Source of the DNA: Kappaphycus alvarezii
Taxonomy: Eukaryota; Rhodophyta; Florideophyceae; Gigartinales; Solieriaceae
Assembly (NCBI GenBank): GCA_002205965.3
Contig: NADL03000523.1
Coordinates: 1,736,001 to 1,800,000, forward strand
Direction of reading: 5' to 3'
DNA: 64,000 bases
The position numbers and the translations under genes are program-made. Shown here piece after piece: positions 13,781 to 42,802 of this stretch. The notes below the pieces were generated by a model. The model was not told the DNA's origin. It worked only from the letters and a program-made list of their open reading frames with translations, and ran no database searches. Position 1 is the stretch's first letter; every line of letters begins with the position of its first letter.

Positions 13781-13848
13781 AAACACCCAAACCTTCCCCC
13801 TTTACTCAATGCACAATTGTAGCATGGGATGGTAAATATTGTGCTGTA

Positions 13849-13893
13849 GATCGCATATATCTTCCAACAGTAGAAACACCCAAAACTTTCCCC
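13849..13893 (+). mobile_element. 45-bp LINE-2 tail insertion, 12-bp target duplication
   Basis: Flanked on both sides by TATTGTGCTGTA (13837-13848 and 13894-13905), a perfect 12-bp direct repeat. The insert runs from GATCGCATATATCTTCC to AAAACTTTCCCC, the last 45 bases of the LINE-2 tail. It is a 5'-truncated retroposon with its C-rich 3' end next to the second repeat. Confidence 0.85.
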
Positions 13894-14132
13894 TATTGTG
13901 CTGTATAATTGTAGACATAGGTTAACATGTGTTGAAATTTTGTAATCCTCCGAAGTAAAAGCCGCAAGGGAAATCAGGAGTTTGGGAAGTAGGTTGGGAA
14001 GTAGACACTTCATGATGATCAGGTGCCACCAAGACAAGAACATTACGTGCAGAACAACAAAAAAATGAAACTGAATCGCTGTGGTGGGTTATAAGGAAAA
14101 CTGCTCGTATTTTACAGGAACACTTAAGTATG

Positions 14133-14231
14133 CTTGGCCAATATACGGTATCTACGCTCCGGTACAAATTTACAAATTTACTGGGTACCAACCCACATAT
14201 CTACCACAGTAAATTAACCCCCCATTTTCAT
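14133..14231 (+). mobile_element. 98-bp retroposon unit, copy 1, 10-bp target duplication
   Basis: Flanked by CTTAAGTATG (14123-14132 and 14232-14241), perfect. The insert begins CTTGGCCAATATACGG and ends TTAACCCCCCATTTTCAT. Its start coincides with that of the copy at 20809, so these two probably are full length. It contains a 9-bp inverted repeat, AATTTACTG and CAGTAAATT, about 25 bp apart. Confidence 0.85.
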
Positions 14232-14497
14232 CTTAAGTATGATCAGTGACGACTTATCCCTCACAACGCTCTAGTAAGTGAAGAGTAAATGAACCCCCCG
14301 TGTTCCCCTTTCACCGAGTGAATACTACGCGCATTGAATACTTATGAGACTCCGAGTGCCACTCCTACTTTAAGTTTTACGATATCTCAAAGGGGGAATG
14401 TTTTGGGGGCTTTTACTGTAGGATATTCCGGGCCACAACCGACTATAATTTTCAAATATTAAACCATTAAACCACCCCACATTCCCCTTCCCCCCCC

Positions 14498-14592
14498 TGT
14501 TGGAAAATATATTCGATCTATCCTAAAGTTTTTCAGACAACCGCAATCGACTTACAAAGGCGTGCACACACAGTAATAGGGGAGGAACGGAT
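14498..14592 (-). mobile_element. LINE-2 3' tail fragment
   Basis: Minus sense: GTGTGTGCACGCC, GGTTGTCTG, GGATAGATCGAATATATT, TTCCAACA. The extreme C-rich end is lost or altered. Same family as 13105-13240. Confidence 0.6.
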
Positions 14593-14626
14593 ATCTCAGT
14601 GCAAAGAGTAGTGTTGAAGCAGAAAA

Positions 14627-14672
14627 GGGGGAAAATTTGGGTGTTTTATTCTTCACAGATATATCTGAATAC
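14627..14672 (-). mobile_element. 46-bp LINE-2 tail insertion, 8-9-bp target duplication
   Basis: GCAGAAAA at 14619-14626 and 14673-14680, with the next G also shared. Read on the minus strand the insert ends CACCCAAATTTTCCCC. The 5' end is variable (GTATTCAGATATATC) relative to other copies. Confidence 0.82.
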
Positions 14673-14688
14673 GCAGAAAAGCAAATGA

Positions 14689-14798
14689 GGGGGATATTTG
14701 GATTATTTTAATTTATAAAACATGCGGTCGGTTTTATTCACGCTGCTGGAAGGGGGAAAGGTTTGGGTGTTTTACTCTGATTCTGCTGGAAGTGCTTT
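14689..14798 (-). mobile_element. 110-bp LINE-2 (subtype b) tail insertion, 8-bp target duplication
   Basis: GCAAATGA occurs at 14681-14688 and 14799-14806. Minus sense, the insert ends AATAATCCAAATATCCCC, the same subtype as the 3' end of the LINE-2 copy at 42803. It contains the 30-bp insertion 14753-14782 nested inside it and lies directly beside the insertion ending at 14680. Confidence 0.8.
14753..14782 (-). mobile_element. 30-bp nested LINE-2 tail insertion, 10-bp target duplication
   Basis: CTGCTGGAAG flanks it at 14743-14752 and 14783-14792. The corresponding uninterrupted site reads GCCGCTGGAAGTACG near 15798. The insert is only the last ~30 bases of the tail (minus sense AGTAAAACACCC to TTTCCCC). 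It is the shortest in the window. Confidence 0.78.
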
Positions 14799-14825
14799 GC
14801 AAATGATGACGCAAAGAAAACGTGG

Positions 14826-15090
14826 TGGTAAATCTTTACGAGTTGCACAGTATGGCACAGAAGCGTGCGGAGGGTATTCAGAAATTAACTACGAATGCGG
14901 GCGGCCGGTGAAAACCTGTCGCGCCTTCATCACTTGGAGACTAAACGCAAAACGGGTAACCAAGATGCGAAGCTCCTGTTGAGGGGAGGAACCGCGACGG
15001 GAAGCGGCGAAGGAAGCAAGGCGGTGGAAGAAACTCTGGCCGTCGTCGTTCAAGGCGCCATAGATAGCAACCCCGAAAGGATTTGATGGC
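14826..15090 (-). pseudogene. LINE-1 C-terminus and 3' end, copy without tail insertion
   Basis: The minus frame reads GVAIYGALNDDGQSFFHRLA, then SFAASRRGSSPQQELR, matching the ends of the copies at 21.4 and 25.7 kb. The 3' noncoding part (about 14826-14925) carries TGCATACT-type and TTTACCACC blocks found there too. It lacks the ~50-bp insertion that both of those copies carry: the site here is a single AATGCGGG at 14893-14900. This is an empty-site reference. Confidence 0.75.
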
Positions 15091-15099
15091 AAAGAAATC

Positions 15100-16400
15100 A
15101 GAGTACACCTTTTTGAATAATTTACCTCTTCATTATTTTTTGACAATAGCAACTTAAATTTTCTCATATTTCAATAGATCGGCAGTGTGTTGTCACGAAT
15201 TCATGCCTTTCTGTATTTCGAAAAAACTGTGCCAGAAACTCGTTCATGAAATGAACAAATACTGTAGTCCCCAAGAAAGGAAAAATTTTCATTTCTGCTG
15301 AAAATGAAAAGTAATATTTCTTGGCCCCCTTTGTTAAAGTAGATTACTATCGAACCAATCCCGTTGCACTTTGCCGTGCCTCCTATTCTGCCTCCTTATC
15401 AATCTGGACCAGCGGTAAATTCTCGTGTTGACCATAATGATTTCAGTGCATTTAGCTCCCCCTCCGTGACAACACTGTTAATACATCCTGCAGCGGACAC
15501 CACTCATACTAGTGCCATACAAAGTTACGTAATTGTTTAGCTATTGGCTCCTCAACGACCTACGCGCTGTCAGCCTCCCAGTCTTACAAAAATAGGGCCA
15601 CGGTGGCAAGGGACGTTGCTGCAGGGACTACAGAAACCTATGGAAGCGTGAGGACCGTCCTCATCCGAAGCCACTCTGCGGCGACTGTAGCGTAAACCTA
15701 ACATATGTTGTAGCTGGTACATACACACTACCACATAACACAAATGGAAAATTTTTGGTTGGTTTCATGTGTGGAAGACGTGGTCGATTATCTCAACGCC
15801 GCTGGAAGTACGCACAAGTTGACTGGGTATCCCAGCTTGTCTGTTACAGTAAATGACCACCCCTTGTTCACCTGCAATGGCAAGTGTTGCTCCATCCTTT
15901 CGGGGAACTCCAGCGTAATTCTGCGCAATACCTGCTGAATCGGTACAGAAACAACCAGTCTCGCTATTTCGCAATAGAGCGCAATAGGTCAGGTTCTCTA
16001 CTATGTGACAGGTACGGGTCGGCTTTCCCCCGGTACGCCCTAAACATGTTCAAGATAATGGGAAGAGGGCCAAAAGCTCTTCAGGGCTGGCTGTAAGCCA
16101 GTAAAGTAATGCATCTACCCTTTGACCTCCAAAACACTCAATCTGCTGTTTACAATGCAACTCATGCGAAGCTCTGCCGCTTTGGTCTGTGCATCCACGG
16201 TCGCACCATCCTGCTGCAACGGAAACGCAAAGGAAATGTAACTTTCTTCGTGACTACTCGCTAGTACGCGAAGCAGACAGAATATTTCCTACTCCTGACT
16301 TTCTTCCCACGCTCAACATCAAACGAACTACGCAGGTTGCCATTGGTCGTTCCATGAAAATCCTGCTAAATTGGTCTGCTTGCGTTCATGAAGAATTGCC
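15100..16400. other. no gene recognised
   Basis: Short frames only. A block at about 16010-16100 (encoding FPRYALNMFKIMG in plus sense) resembles 24110-24190 (IPQCMLDVFRIMG). It is a repeated segment of unknown origin. At 15797 ACGCCGCTGGAAGTACG is a LINE-2b-like sequence without insertion. Confidence 0.4.
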
Positions 16401-16421
16401 TATACTTCACCCTACAAGACG

Positions 16422-16469
16422 GGATAGGTCGGAAATATCTTCCAACAGTAAAACACCCAAACGTTTCCC
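16422..16469 (+). mobile_element. 48-bp LINE-2 tail insertion, 11-bp target duplication
   Basis: CCTACAAGACG flanks it at 16411-16421 and 16470-16480, perfect. The insert runs from GGATAGGTCGGAAATATC through TTCCAACAGTAAAACACCC to a C-rich end. It is among the cleanest examples. Confidence 0.87.
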
Positions 16470-16489
16470 CCTACAAGACGTGCTCCCTC

Positions 16490-17090
16490 CGTCTCGGGAA
16501 ATCGCCGTCCTGCATCTCTGACCCAAAATTCCCCTCTACTGCAGAATGACGTTTTAATTTCCAACGATTGAGCAGGTCTGATAGGCTCGAATGCCAACAA
16601 TTGTTACCAAACTAGTGCAAAATATTATCTTTTCATACAACCAATTGGACAGGCCTTGCACATTTACACGACCCGAGAGAAAAATATTCCTATGCTCGTA
16701 CCGATTCTCTAAGGCATTCTGTTTTGAAGAAGCCTTGGTAGTCCGCGTTTAACAGAAACAGAGCCCGGAGTAAGTCCATATGCTTTGATCGTTTGTGCAG
16801 CAATGTGACACATTGTTAAAGTTGGATGCGAACTACAAAACTCGCAGTATGCCCACACTTTGCAATCGGTTCCGCATCAAACTGCTTCCTGACAGGGATT
16901 TCTTGACAGGCAAAGCATCGACACAATCTCAAAAAAAGGCTGACGAGTGCCGCATCATAAGTTTCGAATTTTGAAATTGTCAACGAGCCCTGTAGCATCG
17001 TGTGCCACCGACGACTCCGCTGTGTATTGATTAACGTTGAATTTGTCATGTTAATGAGTATTTCAGTGGTATACCATTGGGAACCTGATT
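16490..17090. other. no gene assigned; downstream of secreted-protein gene
   Basis: A minus frame (16816-17127) overlaps the end of the gene at 17097 in another frame. It could hold a continuation of the Cys-rich protein if there were an intron or frameshift (it begins with WYTTEILINMTNSTL), but no further C-x10-C-x4-C module is visible. I leave it unassigned. Confidence 0.35.
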
Positions 17091-17096
17091 CTACAT

Positions 17097-18245
17097 TCAC
17101 CCTGCACGGCAGGTTACAGAACGACACTCCAACGCAAGATTTTCACATAAACGTCCTTCACACCTCAATCCCGTCAAATAATCACCGAGATTGCAACTTG
17201 CATTTTGTTGGATCTGCGTGAAACTGGAAGTTTGACCAATATCCAAGTTGCCCTCCAAGCTTGAGCACGCAATAGATATTCGGGAGCAGCTCTCGCCACC
17301 ACACGCCATTTGACTCACGAACATACCATCTGGACATCTAATCTCGCGGCCGTCGAACGACCATTCGCTCTGCCATTCAGGATTTCCCAAAAGGTGTATA
17401 TCCGCCGCATACACTAATTCTCTTCTTTCACATTTCATCCCCGAACATCTAACCGCACGAATTGGACTTGATACCACTTCGGATGTTCCGTCTGGCCCGA
17501 AGTATTTATTTTTCACTGTATCCGACGAAGGCCCACGAAGTTTTTTGCAGAAGTCCCTCTGAGCCTTCTTCTCGTTCACTGTTACCAGGACGCATTTTAG
17601 AGTTAGCTCGAGGCATTCCGCATCCAAACACTCTACTCCGTCAACGTAGTGAGAATCAGGGCACTCGTAACACTGATCAGGCGACTGCTTTTCCACTATT
17701 TCTCTGCTTTTCTCTCTCCGTGATGTCATTCTTCTAGAGAGCAAGTTCTTCTCATTAACAAGAGGGTGCGTTGTCAGCGAGTGACGATGTAAGGTTATGT
17801 CCACTCTCTCCCTTCCGTTCTTAGCGTAGGATCTCATTAGCCTCTTACAGGTCAAACTCACTACATTGCGAGCCGAAATCACGATCCGAGTCACCATCTG
17901 ACGCCCACTGCATATTGCTCTCCGGCGTGAAGAACTAATTCTTCTCTCCGACGATCTTCCTCCTGTTGGTAGAGACTCCGCTTGAGAACCTCTTGACATG
18001 TAGAAAACTCCCCCACCGCTATCTTGTGAACCAACCCCAAAAACCAAACCACTGTACTCTAGCTGGGTATCTGGTAATGCGATGTCGGTCCGAATCATGT
18101 CCCTGTTAACACGTGAATATGGTACCATCTGTGAGTATGTGACATTGGAGAAAAAAGCGGCAAGGGCAAGGCCATAGGTTAAATATTTTGAAATGCTGAG
18201 AAGAAGAAAGCTGGAAAAGTCCATATTTACCGAGTTCCGTCGCAT
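17097..18245 (-). CDS. secreted Cys-rich repeat protein
   Basis: An uninterrupted 382-residue frame, ATG at 18245 and TGA at 17097. A second Met at residue 8 begins a good signal peptide (MDFSSFLLLSISKYLTYG, then ALAAFF), with likely cleavage after about residue 38. Residues 90-190 are Arg/Ser-rich and basic. The C-terminal half holds modules of pattern C-x10-C-x4-C-x6-C at 195-218, 304-327 and 351-374. A fourth, around 267-272, has lost Cys residues. WQSEWSF precedes the third, as a Trp segment does in similar secreted proteins. Such modules occur, as far as I recall, in secreted proteins of oomycetes, algae and other protists; no activity is established. The protein is probably extracellular and disulfide-bonded. 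It is the only long frame in the window not attributable to a transposon. An extra exon downstream cannot be excluded. Confidence 0.72.
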   Translation of the reverse strand: MRRNSVNMDFSSFLLLSISKYLTYGLALAAFFSNVTYSQMVPYSRVNRDMIRTDIALPDTQLEYSGLVFGVGSQDSGGGVFYMSRGSQAESLPTGGRSSERRISSSRRRAICSGRQMVTRIVISARNVVSLTCKRLMRSYAKNGRERVDITLHRHSLTTHPLVNEKNLLSRRMTSRREKSREIVEKQSPDQCYECPDSHYVDGVECLDAECLELTLKCVLVTVNEKKAQRDFCKKLRGPSSDTVKNKYFGPDGTSEVVSSPIRAVRCSGMKCERRELVYAADIHLLGNPEWQSEWSFDGREIRCPDGMFVSQMACGGESCSRISIACSSLEGNLDIGQTSSFTQIQQNASCNLGDYLTGLRCEGRLCENLALECRSVTCRAG

Positions 18246-18837: not shown

Positions 18838-18895
18838 TGAAATGGGGGGTTAATTTACTGTGGTAGATATGTGGGTTGGTACCCAGTAAATTTAC
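18838..18895 (-). mobile_element. 98-bp retroposon unit, 58-bp truncated copy, 11-bp target duplication
   Basis: CATCGAAAATG flanks it at 18827-18837 and 18896-18906, perfect. On the minus strand it begins GTAAATTTACTGGG and ends TTAACCCCCCATTTCA, the same 3' end as 14133-14231 but 5'-truncated by about 40 bp. Confidence 0.86.
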
Positions 18896-20580: not shown

Positions 20581-20619
20581 CAGGAGGCACTTTATATATA
20601 TATAACCCAAACCGACCAC

Positions 20620-20665
20620 ATCTTCCATGCATTAAAATAACCCAAAAATTTTCCTCCTTTATCCA
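20620..20665 (+). mobile_element. LINE-2b tail insertion
   Basis: Sense ATCTTCCATGCATTAAAAT, then AACCCAAAAATTTTCCTCC, matching the subtype-b 3' end. Possible decayed target duplication: CTTTATATATAT before and CTTTATCCATAT after. Confidence 0.55.
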
Positions 20666-20808: not shown

Positions 20809-20906
20809 TTGGCCAGTATACGATATCTAAGCTCCTGTTCAAATTTACTGGGTACCAACCCACATATCTACCACAGTAAATTAACCCCCCATTTCATCAA
20901 ATTTTT
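20809..20906 (+). mobile_element. 98-bp retroposon unit, copy 2, 7-bp target duplication
   Basis: CATTGGC flanks it at 20802-20808 and 20907-20913. It starts TTGGCCAGTATACG, as copy 1 does, and holds the shared core GGGTACCAACCCACATATC. The end is CCCCCCATTTCATC plus a short T-rich tail. Confidence 0.8.
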
Positions 20907-21338
20907 CATTGGCAGTAACCTCCAGTGCGGCTTGTTTGCTTACTGGCTGCCTCCCTACTTGCTGGTCGATTGGAGCGCCATCAGTGCCATCAGCGCCATC
21001 AGCGCCTGCCGCAACCTTTCACGTACATACTCACTACCACCACACAAGTGAAAAAATTGGGATGTTTTAATAATTAAATAATAGGTTAACCTATGTTCCA
21101 AAGCACATCAAATAATTGGTACAAGTGGTCGGCGCACAAGGTGACCTGGTATGTATCAGCAACCTCATCTGTCACAGAAAATGAACCGTCCGTGCCCCCT
21201 ACTCTAAATGGGGACAATGCTTGGGTAGTTCAATATCGCACAGTACTGTACACTACCGTCTGTGGTAGATCTTTACGAGTTGCACAGTATGGCACAGAAA
21301 AGTGCGGAGGGAACTCAGAAATTAACTACGAATGCAGG

Positions 21339-21389
21339 CGGGATAAATCTTATATATTTTCCAAAAGTAAAACAATCAAACCTTTCCCC
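21339..21389 (+). mobile_element. 51-bp LINE-2 tail insertion in LINE-1 3' end
   Basis: Flanked by AATGCAGG (21331-21338) and AATGCAAG (21390-21397). It reads GGGATAAATCTTATATAT through AAAAGTAAAAC to CCTTTCCCC. The inverted LINE-1 copy at 25.8 kb carries the same insertion at the same site, while the copy at 14.9 kb lacks it. Confidence 0.83.
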
Positions 21390-21782
21390 AATGCAAGTAG
21401 TGGACGGAAACCTGTCGCGCCTGCATCACTCGGAGACTAAACGGAAACCCGTAACGGAGTCGCGAAGCTCCTGTTGAGGGGAGAAACTGCCACGAGAAGC
21501 AGCGAAGGAAGCAAAGCGGCAGAAAAAACCCTTGCCGTCGCCGCCCAAGGCGCCATAGATATCAATCCCGACGGGAGAGAGGAGGATATCGTTTTGGTTG
21601 CAGAATGTGCCGTAATGGCGATATTTCTCGCGCTCTGCAAGTGTTGCGGCAGCGCCTGCGGTAACCGTACTTTGCGAGATGTGGCGGCGAGCGGAGGGGT
21701 TAGCTACAGTACCGTCGAGAGCGATATCAGTACTGTGAAGCCGATAGGCACCGGAATGTAGGTGTCCATTTGTAACGCAGGG

Positions 21783-24474: not shown

Positions 24475-24690
24475 TGGAGGAAATGTTTGGTTTATTTTAA
24501 TGCAAAGGAGATAAAATCGATTTTTTCCACCGCTAATGCGTTATGCGGGATAAGTCGTCACTGATGGGTAACACTAAATAAATTCCTTACCCGGGCAACT
24601 ATGGGATAGATCGGATATATCTTCCAAGGGTAAAACACCCAAACCTTCCCCTACTTACGAGGGCCGTTTCAATGCCATACATGTGAAGCA
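24475..24690 (-). mobile_element. LINE-2b 3' end copy
   Basis: The segment aligns with 42803-42940: TTTATTTTAATG near the end, CCACCGCTAATGCG, GGGATAAGTC, CACTGATGGG, and GGGCC then CAATGCCA. It is split by the insertion 24596-24651. Confidence 0.6.
24596..24651 (+). mobile_element. LINE-2 tail insertion, decayed target duplication
   Basis: The insert holds GGGATAGATCGGATATATC, TTCC, GTAAAACACCC and ends CCTTCCCC. It is flanked by CTTACCCGGGC and CTTACGAGGGC; the uninterrupted relative at about 42917 reads CTTACAGGGCC. The empty site supports the insertion despite mismatches. Confidence 0.7.
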
Positions 24691-25136: not shown

Positions 25137-25950
25137 CGATGTGCTCCCGGTGCTCGGCCGACGTCGCGTCCGTCTTAGATCCAAGCGGTCAAAAGTAAGG
25201 CAATGAAAAGGTAGTTTATTTCATCGTCTGACACTTCTAGCGGGGGGATCTAAGCGAGCAAAACGCTTTGACCTTCAAACGAGAAAACGGCATGACTCGT
25301 CGACATCACATCCTCTGCAAAGCTCTCGCAGGCTTCAGTGAGGACTTTGGGATCATCACCGTCGTCGAGCATCCGCTCCTTTACCAGGTTATCAGCTCGT
25401 CTTTGAATTCGGAGTCCCCTGCGTTACGAATGGACATCTACATTCCCGGTCTCTATCGGCTTCACAGAACTGATATCGGTGTCGACGGTATTGCAGCCAA
25501 CCCCTCCGCTCGTCATCACATCCCGCCAAGTACGGCTACCGCAGGCGCTGTGACGACACTCGCAGAGCACGAGAAACATTGTCATTACGGTACTTACTGC
25601 AACCAAAACGATATCCTACTCTCCCTGTCGGGATTGATATGTATGGCGCCTTCGGCGACGACGGCAAGGGTTTCTTCCGCCGCCTTGCTTCCTTCGCTGC
25701 TTCTCGTGGCATTTTCTGCCCTCAACAGGAGCTTCGCAACTCCGTTACGGTTTTCCGTTTAGTCTCCAAGTGATGCAGGCGCGACAGGTTTCCGTCCAGT
25801 ACCTGCATTAAGGAAAGGTTTGAGTGTTTTACTTTTGGAAAATACATAAGATTTATCCCGCCTGCATTCGTAGTTAATTTCAGAGTTCCCTCCGCATACT
25901 TCTGTGCCATACAGTGCAACTCGTCTCGATCTACCACAAATTTCAACGAA
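25137..25950 (+). pseudogene. LINE-1 C-terminal domain, best copy
   Basis: In order: a CxxC start (MCSRCSADV, 25139 on) followed by LDPSG, then RRHHILCKALAGFSEDFG, then RMDIYIP and DIGVDGIAANP, then GAVTTLAEHEKHCHYG and GIDMYGAFGDDGKGFF, SFAASRG. This recalls the Cys motif, RHN and PD-D signature of a restriction-like endonuclease at the C-terminus of RLE-type non-LTR retrotransposons. Two or three frameshifts interrupt it. The 3' noncoding end (25790-25950) carries the LINE-2 tail insertion. Confidence 0.75.
25810..25860 (-). mobile_element. 51-bp LINE-2 tail insertion in LINE-1 3' end
   Basis: CCTGCATT occurs at 25802-25809 and 25861-25868, a perfect 8-bp duplication. The insert is the same as 21339-21389 in inverted orientation, so the insertion predates the duplication of this LINE-1 copy. 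Confidence 0.85.
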
Positions 25951-29421: not shown

Positions 29422-29709
29422 TGTAACCGACTTAGGGTTCTTACTGTAATGTACACCCTTCGACCAAGCTAGCTTACAGGACAGGCTGCCACGAGAACTT
29501 TTATGACTTTGGGCAATCGCCGTCGTCACCCCGACGGTGCGGGGCACGCCGACGGGACCAACTCCCGAGTACCCAAATCGCTACTTAAACTGATGAGGCT
29601 AACTGTAGAGCATGGGATAGAAGGGAGGCAACACGGGCGGAACGACGAACGCTAGTGTAACGAAACGAACAACAGGGTTTTGGTAAACGACCACGCTTCC
29701 CCTGTTACA
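29422..29709 (+). repeat. 5' LTR of chromovirus 2
   Basis: 288 bp from TGTAACCGAC to CCCCTGTTACA. No mismatch to 34368-34655 was found by eye. Confidence 0.95.
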
Positions 29710-29711
29710 CT

Positions 29712-29724
29712 TGGTAGCATCGCG
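29712..29724 (+). other. primer-binding site of chromovirus 2
   Basis: TGGTAGCATCGCG, two bases after the LTR. It shares 12 bases with chromovirus 1 though the LTRs are unrelated. Confidence 0.75.
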
Positions 29725-29767
29725 TTGCGATCCAGTGGTTCACAGCTGAAAGCGACGCACGAGTTGT

Positions 29768-30913
29768 ATGCCTCCAACTCGAATTCCTCCACCACCGACA
29801 CGTGTTCAAGGACCGCGCCGGGCAAAGGAAAGATCTAAGTTTGGTCTTTCACGACAAGCCATGAGTGCGAACATCACCGCGCAAGGTGCGCAAGGTGCAG
29901 GTGACTCCGGCACGCGACCCATAGAAGGTAGTGCAACAAACGAGGAGGTTATTCAGTCATTACGGTCAGAGATCCAGATGATGCGTCAGACGATGGCTGC
30001 ACAAGATGCACGCATAGAGAATTTGCTTACGCTAGTCGAGCAAGGCACAGTCAATCAAGGCTCTTCCGGAAACGCTGGAGAGGGCTCGTGCGATCTTCGC
30101 TCGATCAAGGCACCGCAGTTGTGTAGCTATGCAGGCAATCATGATGAGCGCACGTCTACTAAGGTGAAGTCATTCATTTACAATGTGAGAAAGGTCGGAC
30201 GTCTAAGTGGTTTCCGTGACCAGAAAATGGTAGAACTGGCTGATTGCTATTTACAGGATCGCGCTGCTGTCTGGATGATGGGATTGGAGCGCAATAATCA
30301 GAAGCCGAGAACAGTAGATGAGCTTCAAACAGCTATGCTTCGCGAGTTTGTCCCCCAAAATGAGCGCGCCCGTGCAAAGGCGAGACTTATGAAGATCAAG
30401 CAGTCATCGACAATGGACAGCTATATATCTTCTTTCCGTGATCTCGTAGAGTTATGCGAGACTCCTCTCTCGGAAGCGTATCTTTTCTTTTTCAATGGAC
30501 TCACCGATCGTTTTAAAGAAGAGTTTTGTAAGAAGTATCCCACAGGTGAACCGAATGATCTACAGGAAGTGTACGATCATGCCCGTGTTTTGGATTTGGC
30601 GAAGCAGTGGTCCTCAGGGAACATGGATACCCGCCCCAAGGACCGTCGCCCCGATATTAAAGGTGTAAAGAAGGATATCAATCTTTAGAAGGCTCGTGGA
30701 GAGAAGACAATGATGCCTGAGAAGGATCCTAAGGATCCTATCTGGGGTCCGTCGGATTCCAAACAGCGCAACCATTACCGCAAGCATAACCGTTGCTTTG
30801 AGTGTGGTGCGGCGTGGGAACCAGGACACAGATGTTCAATCGAAGAAAGCAACCAGAATGGGTTGCAGGTGGCAGGCCGTGGGGACAACCCAAAAGGCCA
30901 ACGCCGTCGTTAG
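29768..30913 (+). pseudogene. gag of chromovirus 2 with in-frame TAG
   Basis: ATG 29768 starts MPPTRIPPPPTRVQGPRR. A coiled-coil-like region follows (EIQMMRQTMAAQDARIENLL), then a retrotransposon-gag domain (AAVWMMGLERN, LREFVPQNERARAKARL). The frame meets TAG at 30686, then stays open to 30913. That stretch includes a knuckle-like CFECGAAWEPGHRC, the CxxCG-W-PGHxC form common in chromoviruses. The TAG could be a readthrough site or a mutation. The knuckle overlaps the start of the protease frame. Confidence 0.85.
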
Positions 30914-31449
30914 AGGCGGCCCATGTTAATCTAAACGGGGATGTACCCCTTCGTCTGTCCGCAATTGGGACAGAAACAGCAGGCAACAATGAAATGTATT
31001 ATGATTGTGTTGTCGGATGTGTACAGTCTGTTGGTCATCTCGACCCAGGGGCCACAGACAATTTTATAACCTCCGAGCTGGCTCAGCGAGCTTGTCTTGA
31101 AGTACGTGATTTTGTCACGAAGGTGGAGCTAGGAGACGGCTCCGAAACGAAGACTACAGGGATCACGAATGGTATCATTGGCCTAGACGGTTGCTTAAGC
31201 GAGCAAACTCTGTATGTAATCGAGCTGCCCGAGCACACGCCGTTAGTGCTAGGCCGATCATGGTTAAGAGAGCATAATCCTATCGTGGATTGGAGTAACT
31301 GCTCTCTCAAAGTCGTTCTGCCAGGTGGATCTACGAAATTGATACGACCTCGGCAAGTACCGCGCCATAGAAGCATATCCCTGAAGACAATTTCCATCAA
31401 AAGGATGAGAAAGATGCTGCGAAAGGGCAACGTTGAGCTTTTGCGGTGA
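30802..31449 (+). CDS. protease region of chromovirus 2
   Basis: The frame contains HLDPGATDNFITSELAQRA, the retropepsin active site (DPGA where DSGA is usual), then PLVLGRSWLREHNPIVDW, a conserved partner motif. It overlaps the gag knuckle frame and ends TGA 31447-31449, overlapping the next ORF. The final residues KMLRKGNVELLR would flow into the RT ORF after a -1 shift at CTTTTG (31438-31443). Confidence 0.82.
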   Translation: MWCGVGTRTQMFNRRKQPEWVAGGRPWGQPKRPTPSLEAAHVNLNGDVPLRLSAIGTETAGNNEMYYDCVVGCVQSVGHLDPGATDNFITSELAQRACLEVRDFVTKVELGDGSETKTTGITNGIIGLDGCLSEQTLYVIELPEHTPLVLGRSWLREHNPIVDWSNCSLKVVLPGGSTKLIRPRQVPRHRSISLKTISIKRMRKMLRKGNVELLR

Positions 31450-34193
31450 AGGTAATGCCTGCGGAGGGAAAGTCCAAGGTGGCGCCTGAGTTGGCATCGT
31501 TAGTCGGGGAGTACGGCGAAATTTTCCGAGATGAGTTGCCAGATGAACTACCACCGCAAAGAGGCGTTAATTTTGAGATCAATCTGAAAAGTGATTCAGC
31601 ACCTCCTGTGCGACCGGTTATCAGGCTATCAACAGATGAGCTAGCAGAGCTCAAACGGCAGTTGAAGGAGTTGGTCAACAAAGGATTTTTGCGCCCGTCA
31701 ATATCGCCGTATGGCGCACCAGTGTTTTTTGTGCGTAAGAAGTCAGGCGATCTTAGAATTGTATGTGATTTCCGCGCTCTCAACAAGATCACTATCCCAG
31801 ATGTGACACCTCTGCCACTCATATCCGAGGCCTTAGACCACGTGAGTGGGGCTACTGTATTTTCCAAAGTGGATCTTCTTGGTGCATACCACCAAATGCG
31901 TATTCGTGACGAGGACATCCCGAAGACCGCGATTCGAACACGATTCGGGTCTTATGAATGGACTGTACTGTGTTTCGGACTTACTAACGCGCCAGCCAGC
32001 TTCACACGTTTGCTGACGACGCTTCTACGAGACCTAAATGGCGAATGTTTGGTCATATTCCTTGATGATATACTTGTGTATAGTCGCAATATGGAGGAAC
32101 ATAAGAAACATTTGCGCTCGTTGTTTGATATCTTGCGCAGAGAACAACTGTTTGCAAAGCCAGCAAAATGCGAGTTTGGGAGCTCCAGTATCGAGTTCCT
32201 AGGGCACGTAGTCAGTGCAAACGGGATTGAGATGCAAGCTAATCTGAAGGATGCAATCCTAGACTGGCCAAGGCCAACGACGATTCGTCACGTCCAGCAG
32301 TTCATTGGGCTCGCGAATTATTACCGCAAGTTCATCAGAGGGTACGCTAATATCCTTCGGCCCGTGTCAGACATTTTAAGGTCGAAAACATTCGAGTGGG
32401 GTGAAGAGCAGGAGAACTCATTTGATGCGTTGAAGAAAGCTCTCACTACGGCGCCAGTGCTGGCACACCCCTCTTCTGAAAAAGAATTTATTGTTTCTAC
32501 GGATGCATCTCAATTTGCCGTCGGAGCAACTCTGGAACAAGACGGTAGACCAGTGGCTTACCTTTCTCATCGGCTAACAGACGCTGAAAGTCGATGGTGC
32601 GTAGGTGACCAGGAACTACTTGCTTTTATGATTGCCTTACGAGACTGGGAGGTTTACCTGAAGGGGAGAAAATTCACGTTCAGGACTGACCACGAACCCA
32701 TCCGCTATTTGCAGTCAAAGGCCAAGTTGTCAGGTCGCCAAGCCCGCTGGCTCGACACGCTACAGTCGTTTACATATGATACGTTACATGTCCCGGGGAA
32801 AGTGAATACTGTGCCAGATGCCCTGAGCCGACGCCCGGATCATGACATTCGTTTGCATTCCATTGCGCTAGGTGGAGCCTTGGATGAAATTAGGAACGCC
32901 TACCCCCACGATGCTTTGGCAAAAGAGCTGATTGAGTTCTTTAAAGACGAAACGCCGCCAAGCACACCACAGGGCAAACAACAAGCACAGAACTTTAAGT
33001 TTGAGAATGGAACTTTGCTATGGATAGCAAACGATCAGTCCAGAGTCTATATTCCGAACTATGGTGCCCTCCGGACAAATACTATCAAGGCATTCCACGA
33101 ACCTTCGCATTTTCATGCAGATAAGACGTATTCTGCAATGACGAGGCAAGTATATTGGCGTGGGATGTATGATGCCGTGCGTAGCTACTGTTCGCGATGC
33201 CATGACTGTCAGGTGAATAAGGTTAAGAACAGTCTCCCTGGAGGTAGCTTGCAGCCTCACGACATCCCCGAGAGCTGCTGGCACACTGTGTCTATGGATT
33301 TCTTGACGGAACTACCTATGGATGAAGATGCATTTGATTCTGTGTTTGTTGTCGTAGATAAACTCTCAAAAAGAGCAATCTTCATCCCCACCACGAAAGC
33401 AATTGATGCTCCCGGTGCAGCTCAGCTTTTGCAGCAGTATTTGTTTGCAAAGCACGGAGTACCACGTAAATTCATCTGCGATCGGGATCCGAAATTCAGA
33501 TCTAAGTTCTGGGAAGGTTTGACACGTATTTTTGAAGTCGACCTAAACATGTCTACTGCTGACCACCCAGAGACAGATGGCCAGTCAGAAGTTACGATTA
33601 AGACATTATCTGGAATGCTACGAGCTAGCATTCAGCGATCACCGAATCAGTGGAGTCGTATGCTCCCAGTTTTAGAATTCGAGTATAACTGTTCTCGAAG
33701 CGAGAGCACAGGCCTCTCCCCCTTTGAAGTAGACATCGGCCGAGTACCGTTGAGTGTGAAGACCAGAAGCTATTCTATTGAAGAAGTCCCGAGCCAGTCA
33801 GCGAGAGAATTGGCTGACCGCCTGGAAGCTTACCGCATTCTCGCACGCGACAATATAGCAGCAGCACGTGCCAAGCAACAGCACTACGCGAATCTTCGTA
33901 GGGATCCAAACGTGTCTTTTGAGAAGAATGAATTGGTTTTGTTACGTTCTGACGGCCTGGACAGCTTTAATAGATCGTCCTTACCAACTAAGTGGCGTCC
34001 GAAGTATTTGGGGCCATTGCGAGTGCTAGAAGTAATGAGTCCTGTTACTTATCGTCTGGAATTGCCTCCCACGATGTCGCGAGCACATAATGTATTTCAT
34101 GTTTCAAAGCTCAAGCGTTATCATCGCCCCGAGGGTGCCTCTGGCCCCTTCCAGTCGTCATTGATGCCGACGGGGCTGTCGAACACGAAGTAG
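31446..34193 (+). CDS. RT-RNase H-integrase polyprotein, chromovirus 2
   Basis: 915 codons without a stop. [52 protein letters not shown]. RNase H: STDASQFAVGATLEQ, GDQELLAFMIALRDW, RTDHEPIRYL. Integrase: finger ending CSRCHDCQ, then SMDFLTELPM, ICDRDPKFRSKFW, ETDGQSEVTIKTL, and the GPY-type KYLGPLRVLEVMSPVTYRL. All catalytic residues are present. The frame has no ATG of its own upstream of residue 4, as expected for pol reached by frameshift. It ends without the chromodomain, which lies in the next frame. Confidence 0.93.
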   Translation: MKVMPAEGKSKVAPELASLVGEYGEIFRDELPDELPPQRGVNFEINLKSDSAPPVRPVIRLSTDELAELKRQLKELVNKGFLRPSISPYGAPVFFVRKKSGDLRIVCDFRALNKITIPDVTPLPLISEALDHVSGATVFSKVDLLGAYHQMRIRDEDIPKTAIRTRFGSYEWTVLCFGLTNAPASFTRLLTTLLRDLNGECLVIFLDDILVYSRNMEEHKKHLRSLFDILRREQLFAKPAKCEFGSSSIEFLGHVVSANGIEMQANLKDAILDWPRPTTIRHVQQFIGLANYYRKFIRGYANILRPVSDILRSKTFEWGEEQENSFDALKKALTTAPVLAHPSSEKEFIVSTDASQFAVGATLEQDGRPVAYLSHRLTDAESRWCVGDQELLAFMIALRDWEVYLKGRKFTFRTDHEPIRYLQSKAKLSGRQARWLDTLQSFTYDTLHVPGKVNTVPDALSRRPDHDIRLHSIALGGALDEIRNAYPHDALAKELIEFFKDETPPSTPQGKQQAQNFKFENGTLLWIANDQSRVYIPNYGALRTNTIKAFHEPSHFHADKTYSAMTRQVYWRGMYDAVRSYCSRCHDCQVNKVKNSLPGGSLQPHDIPESCWHTVSMDFLTELPMDEDAFDSVFVVVDKLSKRAIFIPTTKAIDAPGAAQLLQQYLFAKHGVPRKFICDRDPKFRSKFWEGLTRIFEVDLNMSTADHPETDGQSEVTIKTLSGMLRASIQRSPNQWSRMLPVLEFEYNCSRSESTGLSPFEVDIGRVPLSVKTRSYSIEEVPSQSARELADRLEAYRILARDNIAAARAKQQHYANLRRDPNVSFEKNELVLLRSDGLDSFNRSSLPTKWRPKYLGPLRVLEVMSPVTYRLELPPTMSRAHNVFHVSKLKRYHRPEGASGPFQSSLMPTGLSNTK

Positions 34194-34372
34194 AGCGTAT
34201 TTTAGACAAGACCCGAGAGAATCGCAGGATTTATTATCTTGTCCAGTTCACTGGAGAGTCTGAGTCTGAGGCTGAATGGATCGCGAAGTCTGATCTAGGG
34301 CATTGCAAGGAACTCGTTAAGGAATATGAGAAAGCGCTGAGGACATCGCTTTCAAAGAGCGGGCGAGTGTAA
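34140..34372 (+). pseudogene. chromodomain of chromovirus 2, out of frame
   Basis: In the -1 frame relative to integrase: PVVIDADGAVEHEVERILDK, RRIYYLVQFTGESESEAEW, then ELVKEYEKAL. This is a chromodomain. A single-base gain or loss near 34135-34150 detaches it from integrase. The stop codon TAA at 34370 lies inside the first bases of the 3' LTR (TGTAACC). Confidence 0.78.
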
Positions 34373-34655
34373 CCGACTTAGGGTTCTTACTGTAATGTAC
34401 ACCCTTCGACCAAGCTAGCTTACAGGACAGGCTGCCACGAGAACTTTTATGACTTTGGGCAATCGCCGTCGTCACCCCGACGGTGCGGGGCACGCCGACG
34501 GGACCAACTCCCGAGTACCCAAATCGCTACTTAAACTGATGAGGCTAACTGTAGAGCATGGGATAGAAGGGAGGCAACACGGGCGGAACGACGAACGCTA
34601 GTGTAACGAAACGAACAACAGGGTTTTGGTAAACGACCACGCTTCCCCTGTTACA
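34368..34655 (+). repeat. 3' LTR of chromovirus 2
   Basis: 288 bp, apparently identical to the 5' LTR, preceded by the purine-rich AAAGAGCGGGCGAG. The second GAACC follows it. Confidence 0.95.
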
Positions 34656-37202: not shown

Positions 37203-37979
37203 ATGACCAATCTACGCCCCTCGAAAATCATTTCCAAAAATCGCCATCCCCGCCCCCTAAACTCTATTCCTCTACTCCCTTTCGGACCTACTGACCGCGA
37301 GGACTACCTGCGCCGGCAAACCAAGAAAAAGGTCATCTAATTCGTGCGTCGCCTCTTTATTGAGGATGAGGCGGAGGAGGTAGGTAAGGGGCGGGAGTGG
37401 GACATCGAAGAGGGAGCTGGGGAGACCTTTGAGGAATGGGTAGCCCCTGGATTGGTCTATGAGGTTAATAACGAGAATTAAGATGAGGATGAGGTTGAAG
37501 AGGAGGATGAGGATGAGGATGAGGCTGAAGAGGAGGATGAGGATGAGGATGAGGTTGAAGAGGAGGATGAGGATGAGGATGAGGCTGAAGAGGAGGATGA
37601 GGATGAGGATGAGGTTGAAGAGGAGGATGAGGATGAGGATGAGGTTGAAAAGGAGGATGAGGATGAGGATGAGGTTGAAGAGGAGGATGAGGATGAGGAT
37701 GAGGATGAAGAGGAAGAAGAGGAGGATGAAGAGGACGAGGACGAGTTGGATGAGGGAAATGGGGGCATGGAAAGTGTTGTACTGGTGGGGCCTGGACTGG
37801 AGAGTATGGATCAAGTGGTGCTGACGCTGGAACCGGATGGAGATATCTTTAGTAGTTTAGATATCTCCCACAAGGGAATAGAGAGCTGTGAGCCATTCGC
37901 AGATATTTGTGGGGACTGCTTGGACAGCATGGATATTTTAGAGGAGTTGTTTGGATCTGATTTAGAGAATGGGAAATAA
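37203..37979 (+). pseudogene. acidic-protein family, copy B, two in-frame stops
   Basis: ATG 37203 starts MTNLRPSKIISKNRHPRPL, with GPTDREDYLRRQTKKKVI next. A TAA at 37338 and another at 37479 interrupt one continuous frame that resumes each time and ends at TAA 37977 (258 codons). After the first stop: FVRRLFIEDEAEEV, GETFEEWVAPGLVYEV. After the second: an Asp/Glu repeat, then GNGGMESVVLVGPGLESMDQ and the end CEPFADICGDCLDSMDILEE. Copies A and D repeat these landmarks. No known domain is recognised; the CxxC near the end might bind metal. Undisturbed frame across two stops suggests either recent inactivation or stop suppression. Confidence 0.65.
37482..37740 (+). repeat. 30-bp tandem repeat encoding acidic tract
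   Basis: About eight units of GATGAGGATGAG-type sequence, each coding for roughly DEDEDE, Val or Ala, EEE. The first five alternate GTT and GCT, giving a 60-bp higher-order period. It is in frame with gene B. The opposite strand shows long Ser- and Leu-rich frames that are artefacts of the repeat. Confidence 0.9.
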
Positions 37980-38130
37980 GAGGACCTCATTGATTGTTAG
38001 TTTCTTAAGTATCTTCTATTTAGAGTATGTCATCCGCACAAATTGTTTCTGCGCATTTCCTGGTACCTTCTGTAGTTTTGTTCGGACTTTAGGGGTAGCC
38101 AAAAGTCTATATAAGCTGAGTAAACCGCTT

Positions 38131-38270: not shown

Positions 38271-38755
38271 CATACTTGCTTGTAGCCCATTCAACTGTCT
38301 TCCCTATCCACTCCTTTTCGTTTGTTCAACTATACCACGGTAGCACTTTTGTCCCTTGCAACACCTCCTTCTTGGGGTAGTTGGTTCTGAATATCTCTTC
38401 TCCCGACGATTTACCCCTATCAGACTCATTGTAACTGATTTACAAACTATACCCGACAAATTTTTGACTTGGTATCAGGTTACTGATAGATTTTCGCAGG
38501 AGTGCAGCTAAAAGGAAGCTGCGCCAATCGACAGGGGAGAGCATTGTTTACCATTCATTCCACCTATTACCTCCAATTAAAGCATGAATTAGATTTGAGG
38601 GGGAAAATGAGTATCCGATGTTATAACGACATCAAATACGGGCACTAAAAGAGTAATTGCAAGTAGCTGAAGAGGGAAACAAGTATGGATGATACAGCAC
38701 TAAAACAAAGAAAGGGATGTTGGATGTGAAATAACACAAAGATCAGATGGTCTGG

Positions 38756-39435
38756 AATGACAACGATATGAGTAGAGGCATCCTCGTTTTCGATTCTAGA
38801 GCAGTTGCGTATATGATGCACGATCCCAAACTGTTTGCATCTGTGAAGAGATGTGTTGTTCCTTCAGTTACGATAGGAGATGGAAGCTAAACATGTCAAA
38901 ACAAGAAAGCGTAATCGGACCATCAGCAACAGATGATGATAGTTCAACATTTATTAATCAAAGAAATTCACTCTTTGTTCCACCACCGGATAGAAATCTA
39001 TTTTCTGTACCAAGATTAGATGCACAAGGATTTAAATTATGCTTCTGCGGCAGGAGATATGTGATTTGTTTCCAAGAGTACTGCTTCTATGAAAGAGATT
39101 CAGAGCTGTTTTATGTATTGATACTTTCAGGTAGTACTTCGAAAATTGAGGATGCCTCTGTCGCCTATGATGCCACCAGAGGAGAGAGATTGTGGAACCA
39201 GGGGCATTTTGATAGCATTTACTGTGTGAAAAAAGAATTCTACGGAAAAATTACCTTTCAAGGTCTAGATTTGACGAAGAAATTATCGCTGAAGTCTAGT
39301 AAACCACAACATGTGAGTCCTGGTGGCATCATATTGATTAACGTTTGTAGACCGTCACCTTTACCAACCATATGTGGTAATAGGTGCTTTCTTACCTTAT
39401 ACATGGAAAGTAAATATGGGTGGGGGTCCGACTAG
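38756..39435 (+). pseudogene. Copia 2 protease and GAG-pre-integrase
   Basis: FDSRAVAYMMHDPKLF corresponds to the protease DSGA-HM site with the Gly replaced by Arg. LFSVPRLDAQGFKL matches the region after the protease, and LWNQGHFDSIYCVKKEFYGK with ITFQGLDL the GAG-pre-integrase. The long frame 38851-39435 covers the latter parts. Confidence 0.7.
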
Positions 39436-39439
39436 AGGA

Positions 39440-39900
39440 CAAAGATAGGAGCTACGTACGTGGTTCCGCTTAGTGCAGTTGAAGTTCGAACCTAGGTTTT
39501 ACTGCAAGATCTAATGTCTATATTCAGTAGATGGCAGAGAATACGTAGCTTTACAGGACTATTTAAGTTGCATGGGATTTAGTGGGGCAATTTTGATCCC
39601 CATACTCCCCAGCGGAATTGGATTACGGAGAGATTCAACCAAACTCCAATGCATACTGCTTGTTCCATGCTGGCATAGCATGGATTCCCCGACACCTTCT
39701 TTGGGTAAATCATAGTTACAGCGGTGAAATTGCGCAATCTGATAGGGAATAAGGTGCAAAATGGTAAGACAACACACTAAGTCCTGACTGGAGGAGACCT
39801 AATGTCAGTAATTTGCGTATATTTGCATGTGAGGTTTGGATGGCGGACCCACGTAACAGAAAACAGAAATTGTACAACCTCACTCGCGACGGAATAGTAA
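39440..39900 (+). pseudogene. Copia 2 integrase remnant
   Basis: The segment HTPQRNWITERFNQTPMHTA followed by CSMLA corresponds to the integrase stretch around the catalytic Glu (TPQQNG-AER-N). The earlier core is lost in stops. Confidence 0.6.
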
Positions 39901-40039
39901 TCCGATGTTTAATAAAATGTAGCTACAGAGTGTGGAAAATTAAGAAAGGATGTATACACATTATCCTCACGTGTCTTTGAATGAAAATGTGTTCCACGCT
40001 AGTGAATGGTAAAAAAAAGAGTCTCCAGGAAGGGATGAA

Positions 40040-41520
40040 ACGTTTATCGAATTGACACGGCCTGTTGTTTGGATCTGGGAGATGTCCTTGAGATTTTTAG
40101 ATCTGAGAATAACGACTCCACCAATGGAGACGAGGGCTATGGGTCTACAACTGAAGGTCTCTAGACGATTAGTTCACTCCAAGACGGAGACGCTCAAGAA
40201 GCGGAAAATGCTCACATATTATCCAGCTCATAACAAACAAGTTCTTGAATCACAAGATGGCATAATCGTTCGTGTCCCAGATGTAATAATCTTCAGCATT
40301 CCTGAAGGAATGGAAAGTAACAATTGCCATCTTTGGAGCGAAGCTCTCTCAAAAGAAATTTATAACCTGCAAGAAAGAGGGACTTTGGTCAGTGAGGAAG
40401 TCCCAACAAGGGCCAAGGTGTTGGAGTCAAAGATGATCTTTGACCTAAAATGTAAGTCGGATGGAACAATTGAAAGGCATAAGGTTAGATTCGTAGTGCG
40501 AGGTTTCCGGAAAGGAAAATAATGTGTGTACATGCCGTAACGGTAGACATAGGATCAATTCGAATCGCGCTTGCGTCAGCTCCAAAGTGTGAAATAATTC
40601 ATCATCTTCATGTAAAAAATTGCATTACTTTATGACAATTTGGATGAATCAGACATTATCTACATCAAGCCTAAGAAAGGACTCTATATTGGCCTTCGAG
40701 ATAATCAAGCACTCACGTTTGTCGAGGAATTTTATGGCCTCAGGAAAGTTACGGAAATTTTGCTGAAGAAGTTCACAAAAAACCTATGTCTACTCAAATC
40801 AATTGAGTGCTTTTTCCGTACAACGCCCAATAGTATCCATGTATAGATTCAGTTTTGTGTAAATGATTTGTTGGTGGTGAGCAGCTCATAGTCTGCTCTT
40901 GATAAAGAGAAGGAAAATACCATGGAGGAATTTGTGATGAAGGACCTTGGTACAGTAAAATCATTCTTGGGACCCGAGATAGTATAGCGTGGGGATGGCG
41001 TGTCCCTCAATTAAAAAAATAAGCTCAGATACTGTTGGAAAATTTCTAATTGCGGAACTGTAAACCCATTACAAGGCCCATGTTATCTCCGAAAAAAACA
41101 TCTATGTATGACTCATAAGTGCTAAGCGGCAGTGGAGTCCGAAATTATCAAAAGGCGGTAGGTAACCTACTATTCTCGGCTACTTGCACAAGAAATTACA
41201 TTGCCGCAGCGGTCGCTGTAATTGAAAGAACGTCGAAAAAACCTGCGGTAGGAGACTGAAGCAAGTTTCATAGGATCTTCAGTACCTAAACTTGACATTG
41301 GATGTAGGAATGTGGTTCAGACTCAGAGACACCCCATTTTACATTACTAGGATCGGTTCGTTTGATTACTATTGGACTGAGAATTTGGATTCCAGACGAT
41401 CGATTAGCAGAGTTTGTGTTACTTTAATCAGAATTGCAATTTCTAGGAAGCGGAAAAAGCAATCTGTTACAGCCATATGGTCATGCGGGGCGGAATCGAT
41501 GACACTCTGAGGGCACAATA
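40040..41520 (+). pseudogene. Copia 2 RT and RNase H
   Basis: LWSEALSKEIYNLQERGT and IERHKVRFVVRGFRKG open the RT (frame 40052-40522). IIYIKPKKGLYIG and YGLRKVTEILLKKF follow, then FCVNDLLVVSS, where the YVDD box reads FCVND, and FVMKDLGTVKSFLG. RNase H traces appear at 41292-41510 (DSRRSISRVCV, and later AESMT). It is inactive. Confidence 0.75.
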
Positions 41521-42240
41521 AGCTGCGTAAATGGTTCCTATTATTGCTTACAGGACGTCATCTAATTGGTACAGGGCCTACATTACTGTATTAACATAAT
41601 AGGGCAGTCAAGTGGGTAAATTGGAAACGGTCTCCAAGCATGTGGATGTGTAGTGTCACTTCGCAAGAGATGGAATACCGGCTAGTATCGCCAGAATCGA
41701 ATATTGTACTTCTAAGAACACGCTCGCGGGCATATTAAAGAGACAGCTAACTGCAAAATGAGTGGAATTGCTGCGTCGTGAACTGCAGGTAGTACCTATC
41801 AGAATGGAAAACTGTACTGCTAAAGAGGGGAGTTGAAATTGACATTGATACAGCTATCAGTTGTTGTTGAATGTTCAAGTGAGAATGGGTACCTCATTCG
41901 TATTTTACTTTGTAACAATTGGGAAAGAGAGAAGTAGATCAAGTCATTGGGAAGATCAAGATTTGTTACCTTGGTTAGCTCGGCAGATATTCTAGTTGAA
42001 TTCTGGTAATATTTTTAGGAAAAAAACTGAGTCGAATCCCTTAGGGCTTAGATTTTCATCATTCCCTTTGGGCTTCAGGTCGAAATGCTTTGATGTATAG
42101 TAAAATCCCTAGTGCTGTTCGTGGAATCTACTCTATGACTTGAAAACCTGAGCTGAGATTACTAAGAGTCATGAGTATAATCTATGTTTATGAGTAAAAG
42201 CTCCAGAGAAAAAGAACTCGGCAACCTGACAGCTACCAGA
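41521..42240. other. no gene seen
   Basis: No recognisable protein or repeat boundary. It may include the lost 3' end of Copia 2. Confidence 0.4.
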
Positions 42241-42600
42241 CACACGTATATACCAAGGTCGGGGTGAGAGAGCGAAGAGAAAAGGACCAGGAGGAAGATG
42301 TGCACACGTAATGGAGCCGTGATCGGTCGGTTTCTGCTGTGGGCAAGAAAAAGCTGTCAGACTGCGAAAGCAGTCTTTCAGTTGTGGTCACATGTTGTAG
42401 TTTTTAACCGGGGACGGGCGAAGAAAAATTCACGAAAATCGAAGTAGCCATTAGATACGAAAACAGATCCTGATGGTGTGGAGATAGGAAGAATATTGCA
42501 GGCCGGGGTGTCTGTTCCAGGTATCTGTCCGAGAAAATGATCGAAATGACGGATGTAGGACGGAAAAACTGATTATGAAGTCGTTGTAAGCTACCTCGGT
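42240..42600 (-). pseudogene. LINE-1 middle fragment
   Basis: The minus frame has YLEQTPRPAIFFLSPHHQDL and FVNFSSPVPG, matching HLEKTPRSAILLISSRHPQL and LCFSPVPG in the copy at 22.5-22.9 kb. It ends at the insertion site below. Confidence 0.68.
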
Positions 42601-42605
42601 AATTT

Positions 42606-42647
42606 AATACATCTTCCAAGAATAAAAAACCCAATCCTTTCCCCCTT
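42606..42647 (+). mobile_element. 42-bp LINE-2 tail insertion, 8-bp target duplication
   Basis: GGTAATTT flanks it at 42598-42605 and 42648-42655 (10 bp if one mismatch is allowed). It reads AATACATCTTCCAAG through AAAAAACCCAATCC to a CCCCC end. The LINE-1 copy at about 22930 has the site without insertion (CCTCGGTAGAAG). Confidence 0.82.
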
Positions 42648-42802
42648 GGTAATTTGCGACGACCAAGACAGCACTTTGTGATTAATTATTAATCAAAATA
42701 TGATTAATTATTAATCAAAATATTGGTGTGGCATTAAATCCACTTACAATAAATGTTATTGTTGTATCAGCTGATTGGGTCTCCGGCATAAGCAAGGAAT
42801 CA

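Follow-up and report, generated by a model that had tools for sequence, protein, structure and literature searches.

The window analysed here is a 64,000-nt stretch of the Kappaphycus alvarezii genome (contig NADL03000523.1, positions 1,736,001 to 1,800,000), and it contains short inserts that lie between direct repeats and finish in a common C-rich 3' end. We suggest that these inserts are target-primed, severely 5'-truncated integration products of several related long interspersed nuclear elements (LINEs) of the restriction-like endonuclease (RLE) type, and we assign this reading a probability of about 0.9. A shared 3' end, ragged 5' ends, flanking duplications, empty related sites and LINE coding sequence in longer copies together lead to this reading, and the same observations support the first-pass annotation of the window, which had proposed target-primed reverse transcription with extreme 5' truncation. 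When the inserts that it had listed at 13849, 14627, 14689, 14753, 16422, 25810 and 42606 were read directly, all of them were found between the direct repeats given for them. The pair at 21339/25810 also proved to be an insert between repeats, but it represents one insertion duplicated with its surroundings and not two separate events.

The abundance of the inserts was examined in the 336-Mb, 884-contig assembly, in which the window lies within contig C519. When the family-a tail GTAAAACACCCAAACCTTTCCCC was searched with at most 3 mismatches, 8,392 matches were found genome-wide (4134 and 4258 on the two strands), and the reversed pattern used as a control gave 6 (3+3). The exact 18-mer of the tail occurred 471+502 times, and its reversed control 0+0 times. 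The window contained 10 tail matches at the same threshold of 3 mismatches, and 100 shuffles contained 0. A family-a profile recovered 14 copies in the window compared with 5 in random stretches totalling 180 kb, one of these 5 copies being cut by the stretch end, and on reversed sequence its best match was no better than E 4.8. This profile was built from copies including most of those later found in the window and the random stretches, and the random sample consisted of 18 stretches of 10 kb placed randomly within 18 contigs, namely 17 already known to carry a tail match and the window's own contig. The density was about 220 per Mb in the window against a genome average of about 28 per Mb, and therefore the window is a local cluster of copies.

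For the analysis of insert ends, 56 copies were picked by their 3' end, comprising 30 + 17 genome loci, 10 copies from the window and 4 from the random sample, minus five rows (L005, L006 and L007, near-identical to L004; L021, near-identical to L020; and L054, which overlaps L053). A set of 55 copies, used for lengths, also leaves out W25810 as the same event as W21369, and the array copies of L049/L050, the cut L046 copy and four diverged window copies stand outside both sets. When the copies were extended against a reference composed of L009 and the majority 3' end, their lengths ranged from 26 to at least 1,036 nt, where the reference ends, with a median of 56 nt; 29 copies were 60 nt or shorter, 17 measured 61-150 nt, and 9 were longer. 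The size of 30-110 bp proposed earlier thus describes the main class but not the whole range. Likewise, the constant C-rich 3' end is indeed common to the copies, but it varies within about 3 nt instead of being exactly fixed. The 5' ends stop at different places, as had been noted, and are ragged nucleotide by nucleotide over the 55 copies, the tightest 3-nt bin being no tighter than a uniform distribution (p 0.35); both ends were never common among the copies examined. The 5' ends are thin at 57-98 nt and show two zones of high stopping rate, at 35-55 and 100-125 nt, which rest on 55 copies and are a lead, not a result. The short sequences are continuous with the LINE 3' untranslated region (UTR) of longer copies. 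In L059 and L062, an inverted or repeated internal piece lies between one pair of flanking repeats, and these pieces look like nested insertion or template switching.

The flanks of the inserts carry duplications far more often than random sites do. A flanking repeat of at least 7 nt, taken as the longest word common to both flanks, was present in 24 of the 56 copies, compared with 2.05% of permuted flank pairings and 104 of 4,000 random places (2.6%), and in all 24 the repeat ended within 5 nt of the 5' breakpoint. Of the 30 copies up to 60 nt long, 16 have such a repeat, and of the 26 that exceed this length, 8 do. The length of the duplication varies from 6 to 12 nt, in agreement with the variable lengths reported previously.

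Empty sites were sought among related repeats within this genome, as a substitute for comparison with another strain or species, and the insert together with one copy of its repeat was missing from such sites in four clean and two less clean cases, which bears out the expectation that the duplications would be absent from empty sites. Window position 14903 and L048:6438 lack the 21339/25810 insertion, which is 50 nt long and has a 9-nt repeat. The C60 array lacks two inserts of the C45 array (about 60 nt, repeat ATACTCAG; about 33 nt, repeat CTGGGA), and the C45 array in turn lacks a C60 insert that has another tail and is flanked by CATTGGAATC. In the two less clean cases, which are also array inserts, either the repeat is short or imperfect or the counterpart has diverged. 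These arrays (C45:512455-537103 and C60:465373-479517; L049 and L050 are 10 kb each) are related tandem arrays with units of about 3.44 and 3.54 kb that carry several inserts each, and in the units seen the two arrays carry different stub sets, as if homogenised after insertion. An Rfam search of the array DNA gave no match. The possibility that the 3.4-3.5 kb units are full-length LINEs was rejected, as LINE protein queries matched nothing in L049/L050 and every unit contains several of the inserts.

Longer copies run into LINE coding sequence. In the family-a copies L009 and L015, coding sequence for a C-terminal endonuclease (RLE) lies upstream and runs into the tail. Reverse transcriptase sequence was detected in the window and in two other loci, L042 and L047; L016, L035 and L066 gave short matches. 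The long family-b copy of the window (42804-43967) contains the end of a reverse transcriptase region (43866-43967), a linker open reading frame (ORF; 43406-43801), a degenerate RLE ORF (42920-43402) and then a 3' UTR of about 115 nt ending in the shared tail, so that it overlaps both parts. L047 matches PF00078 with E 4.5e-6 and 27.0 bits, and the RLE region of this genome gave no Pfam match and no direct PDB sequence match. When a stitched L047 reading was used as a query, 38 relatives were found, and a profile of 15 of them best matched R2 chains in PDB (i-E 4e-24 for the reverse transcriptase and, separately, 4e-8 for CCHC and RLE); the genome's own RLE alignment matched the L047 relatives over 178 columns with 99.7% probability. 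The LINE RLE residues given in PMC5678591 (RH, PD, D, KX2KY and G-x-W) occur in order across copies L024, L015, L004 and L047 taken together. A CCHC zinc knuckle precedes the endonuclease in L024, L047 and the relatives with the spacing CX4CX9HX3C, and PMC5678591 gives CX2-3CX7-8HX4C. The copies examined included no intact element. The reverse transcriptase, the CCHC knuckle, the RLE residues and the profile link to R2 make the element an RLE-type LINE, and, as judged from these sequence features, the source elements are related to R2.

More than one family shares this organisation. The family-b tail (TTAAAATAACCCAAAAATTTCCCC, at most 4 substitutions) was found in 10 copies in the sampled DNA, with none for the reversed pattern, and it terminates RLE-coding LINE copies at window 42804-43967 and in L047. 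We also scanned the 18 random stretches and the window for duplications first, with the family sequence ignored. In this family-blind scan, an upstream 9-nt repeat accompanied 8 of 144 TTCCCC ends and 6 of 180 TTTCCC ends, compared with 0 to 2.5% for 16 other hexamers (highest CTCTCT, 4/160); among heptamers the values were 4/49 for CTTTCCC and 0/48 for ATTTCCC. With 8-nt repeats the gap was smaller (6.25% and 4.44% versus 0.8 to 3.9%), and part of the TTCCCC signal is the window itself. Two tails not met before, each represented by a single copy, came out of the scan in L042, and the tail types seen have in common a TAAA about 20 nt ahead of the TTCCCC terminus.

The copies also share a preference at the insertion site. 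On the element-sense strand just before the repeat, position -2 is C in 17 of the 24 copies with a repeat of at least 7 nt and position -1 is A in 15, and CA| precedes the repeat in 11 of them (p 9e-8) and in 13 of 33 copies with a repeat of at least 6 nt, against a background of 6.5% of dinucleotides and 20 of 346 chance words. CA| also precedes 8 of 10 further sites outside the 56-copy set, which were hand-picked for a visible repeat from the array and empty-site set, the family-b copies, the family-blind scan and the window family-b insert; L042:4343 and L049:6868 do not fit, and the L050 boundary CA|CATTGG was picked from two readings. Junctions were read in 26 copies hand-picked from the 33 whose repeat is at least 6 nt long; the repeat has C at +1 in 15 of them (p 9e-5) and T at +4 in 16 (p 3e-4). 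The excess of C at +1 may be inflated by the C-rich element end, and position -2 is free of such bias. The CA| preference on the element strand would thus place the first-strand nick at ..AAAG|TG on the other strand.

Based on these observations, we suggest the following course of events. The element protein would nick dispersed DNA with a preference for element-sense CA| (often TTCA|CTTT), i.e. on the strand ending ..AAAG|TG, and reverse transcription would be primed on the nearly fixed, non-poly(A) 3' end of the RNA (TAAA...TTTCCCC). Synthesis would mostly halt within 30-150 nt, and second-strand cleavage 6-12 nt away and joining would still occur, leaving a stub between short duplications. 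We infer the order of these events, recognition of the tail by the protein itself, and early loss of the polymerase, not short templates, as the cause of truncation. A stronger form of this proposal, which we offer tentatively and at somewhat less than even odds, is that in this lineage a cDNA of only 30-55 nt may be enough for the RLE LINE protein to proceed to second-strand cleavage and joining, a second exit zone lying at about 100-125 nt, that abortive cDNAs are integrated efficiently to give several thousand stubs or more, and that a single terminal recognition end and a single CA| nick rule are common to several subfamilies.

The most serious competitor, itself less likely than not in our judgement, holds that short degraded 3' RNA fragments serve as templates for normal LINE ribonucleoproteins, so that the polymerase simply reaches the template end. 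With such templates the products would look alike, with an identical 3' end and flanking duplications, and the 5' end zones at 35-55 and 100-125 nt could be zones of RNA cleavage. The 155-nt 3' end, on the other hand, folds less stably than its shuffles (z +2.0; 200 of 200 shuffles at least as stable), and a fold this weak means that structure explains neither RNA cuts nor polymerase stops. Stalling at an RNA hairpin was accordingly unsupported as a cause of truncation, because neither this end nor the 58-nt 3' end, for which 164 of 200 shuffles were at least as stable, folds better than shuffles.

The remaining explanations are much less probable than short templates. That the short copies are a short interspersed nuclear element (SINE), or some other non-autonomous unit that is roughly 50 nt long, fixed in length, equipped with a promoter and provided with a borrowed LINE tail, is improbable; 29 of 55 copies at 26-56 nt and only one at 57-78 nt might look like a unit length, but the 5' ends are spread nucleotide by nucleotide and the sequence runs on into the LINE 3' UTR. 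Instead of a defined 5' end and a head derived from a small RNA, we found ragged ends, and searches for tRNA and Rfam families within the window were empty. Erosion of old full-length copies to stubs with chance flanking repeats would fit the stops and frameshifts that break the long copies, and yet we consider it very improbable, given that over half of the copies up to 60 nt long are flanked by a repeat of at least 7 nt, always within 5 nt of the breakpoint, against 2.6% at random places, and that clean empty sites lack the stub and one repeat; for the copies with empty sites it is refuted. Least probable of all is a DNA transposon resembling a miniature inverted-repeat transposable element with GGG...CCC ends. 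Some 50-nt copies do begin with GGGATAG and finish with CCCC, but 5' ends are unshared, the repeat length is not constant (6 to 12), and longer copies enter LINE coding sequence; the ragged 5' ends refute this candidate.

Several observations weigh against target-primed, 5'-truncated integration of RLE-type LINEs, or against the extent of truncation that we propose. The cited inserts are flanked by direct repeats, but this does not extend to every copy, since 32 of 56 have no shared flanking word of at least 7 nt. In the 26 repeat-bearing copies whose junctions were read, 1-12 nt remain unexplained on the 5' side in 10 cases, and the 3' end is followed by an additional 1-3 nt in 8. Copies no longer than 60 nt make up 9 of 13 from the window and random sample but only 20 of 42 chosen by an exact tail, so the median of 56 nt depends on sampling, and L001, L059 and L062, three of the 29 short copies, carry further element pieces upstream, so that these inserts are longer than counted. 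A mid-UTR 23-mer occurs 3097+3123 times genome-wide, almost three quarters of the tail count, and at face value this implies fewer short copies than in the sample. In our reading, this count is probably confounded by subfamilies with differing tails, such as the diverged window copies at 2534-3163 and 14497-14591; a gapped pattern combining tail and mid-UTR was badly spaced and fits only 8 of 23 long sample copies. No single copy examined runs from the reverse transcriptase to the tail, the link being made by overlapping copies. The PF00078 match lies below the curated cut-off of 29.6 bits, and the copies are broken, the window RLE reading RTD for the expected RPD and also KRRRY. Finally, all of the evidence is DNA sequence.

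The copies in the window are listed in Table 1.

Table 1. Element copies in the window, with their flanking repeats
Feature	Position	Strand	Remarks
Family-a insert 13849-13893	13837..13905	+	12-bp duplications TATTGTGCTGTA at 13837-13848 / 13894-13905
Family-a insert 14627-14672	14619..14680	-	GCAGAAAA at 14619-14626 / 14673-14680; repeat 9 nt on element strand; about 4 nt filler at 5' end
Family-b insert 14689-14798	14681..14806	-	GCAAATGA at 14681-14688 / 14799-14806; site CA|TCATTTGC; interrupted by nested family-a insert 14753-14782
Shortest family-a insert 14753-14782	14743..14792	-	30 nt, 26 nt homology; nested insertion; 10-bp CTGCTGGAAG at 14743-14752 / 14783-14792
Family-a insert 16422-16469	16410..16480	+	(C)CCTACAAGACG; CCTACAAGACG at 16411-16421 / 16470-16480
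Family-a insert 21340-21389, 50 nt	21331..21398	+	9-bp duplication, now imperfect
Same insertion, inverted duplicate, 25810-25861	25801..25869	-	CCTGCATT either side of 25810 insert
Family-a insert 42606-42647	42598..42655	+	8-bp GGTAATTT at 42598-42605 / 42648-42655
Longer family-a copy, 137 nt	13106..13242	-	10-bp duplication TTTTCCGCTA
Family-a copy, about 42-48 nt	13753..13800	+	Without clear duplication
Family-a copy, about 56 nt	24591..24652	+	Without duplication of at least 6 nt
Diverged family-a copy	915..986	-	Found by profile
Longer diverged copy	2534..2857	-	3' end 2534-2666; LINE coding remnant before it at 2660-2857
Diverged family-a copy, 114 nt	3050..3163	-	Found by profile
Diverged family-a copy	14497..14591	-	Last ~22 nt outside profile match
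Short family-b copy	20590..20662	+	6-nt CTTTAT at 20590-20595 / 20657-20662, weak evidence; site GGCA|CTTTAT
Long family-b copy, ~1.1 kb	42804..43967	-	5' limit inferred from similarity only
LINE reverse transcriptase fragment, another copy (QGD...WYHDD)	48273..48716	-	Aligned with L042 and L047 reverse transcriptases; alone, no Pfam match

Other sequences were also observed. A 54-56-nt sequence, 100% identical, occurs three times in the window (14174-14227; 18838-18893, inverted; 20841-20896) with CAGTAAATTAACCCCCCATTT near one end, and it may belong to a further tail type. A Gypsy-type element at 29422-34655, which has 288-bp ends of 100% identity and a 915-aa reverse transcriptase/integrase ORF, is a recent insertion. 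A second Gypsy element at 4200-12178 has a chromodomain and long repeats of 99-100% identity, and one more piece of the terminal repeat lies upstream of it in inverted orientation. In a search with a Gypsy polyprotein, the top matches were unnamed proteins of 54-68% identity, and among named proteins the best match covering most of the length came from Closterium (39%). A low-complexity (GATGAG)n tract at 37482-37745 lies inside a 180-aa minus-strand ORF. Outside the window, L041:9319-9933 encodes a leucine carboxyl methyltransferase domain (PF04072, E 1.3e-26), the sole host-like domain among ten ORFs scanned.

Inserts as short as 26-60 nt can be expected to escape standard repeat masking, and in such genomes a large class of retrotransposition events may therefore have gone uncounted. 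Because both a nick site and a termination point can be read from every stub, the genome would record the nicking, polymerase reach and second-strand completion of a dispersed RLE LINE; PMC6895275 describes the second-strand step as very poorly understood. Among the matches listed from the open-licence literature, ultra-short copies were undescribed in titles and abstracts, which is weak evidence of novelty.

When compared with known systems, the element resembles the R2/RLE group (CRE, R2, R4, NeSL, HERO and Utopia), which likewise has a reverse transcriptase, a CCHC knuckle and an RLE, whereas the insertions here are dispersed with a CA| preference only, and most sampled copies are 26-150 nt. 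The vertebrate CR1 and L2 elements, which are LINEs of the apurinic/apyrimidinic endonuclease type without a long poly(A) tail, likewise have a fixed 3' end and mostly 5'-truncated copies. EhLINE1 and EhSINE1 of Entamoeba are R4-type; EhLINE1 likewise has a short nicking preference, but the nick sequence is another one, and the short copies studied in Entamoeba are a defined SINE (EhSINE1) in contrast to the ragged LINE ends seen here. Truncation at the 5' end has been described for copies of R2 (PMC7650587), target specificity prevails in R2 and most RLE clades, with HERO as the clade that has many non-specific members (PMC4640811), and the EhLINE1 endonuclease prefers GTATT (PMC3118788). In Anolis, fewer than 10% of polymorphic CR1 insertions and fewer than 7% of those of L2 are full length, compared with about 40% of insertions of R4, which is RLE-type (PMC5389967). 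Going by these proportions, the median near 50 nt here looks far shorter. Based on these papers (PMC4640811, PMC7650587, PMC3118788, PMC5389967), RLE LINEs, 5' truncation and short nick preferences are already known, and what is unusual here is the size of most of the sampled copies, how many there are, and the retention of a single, nearly fixed non-poly(A) terminus by different subfamilies of a dispersed RLE element.

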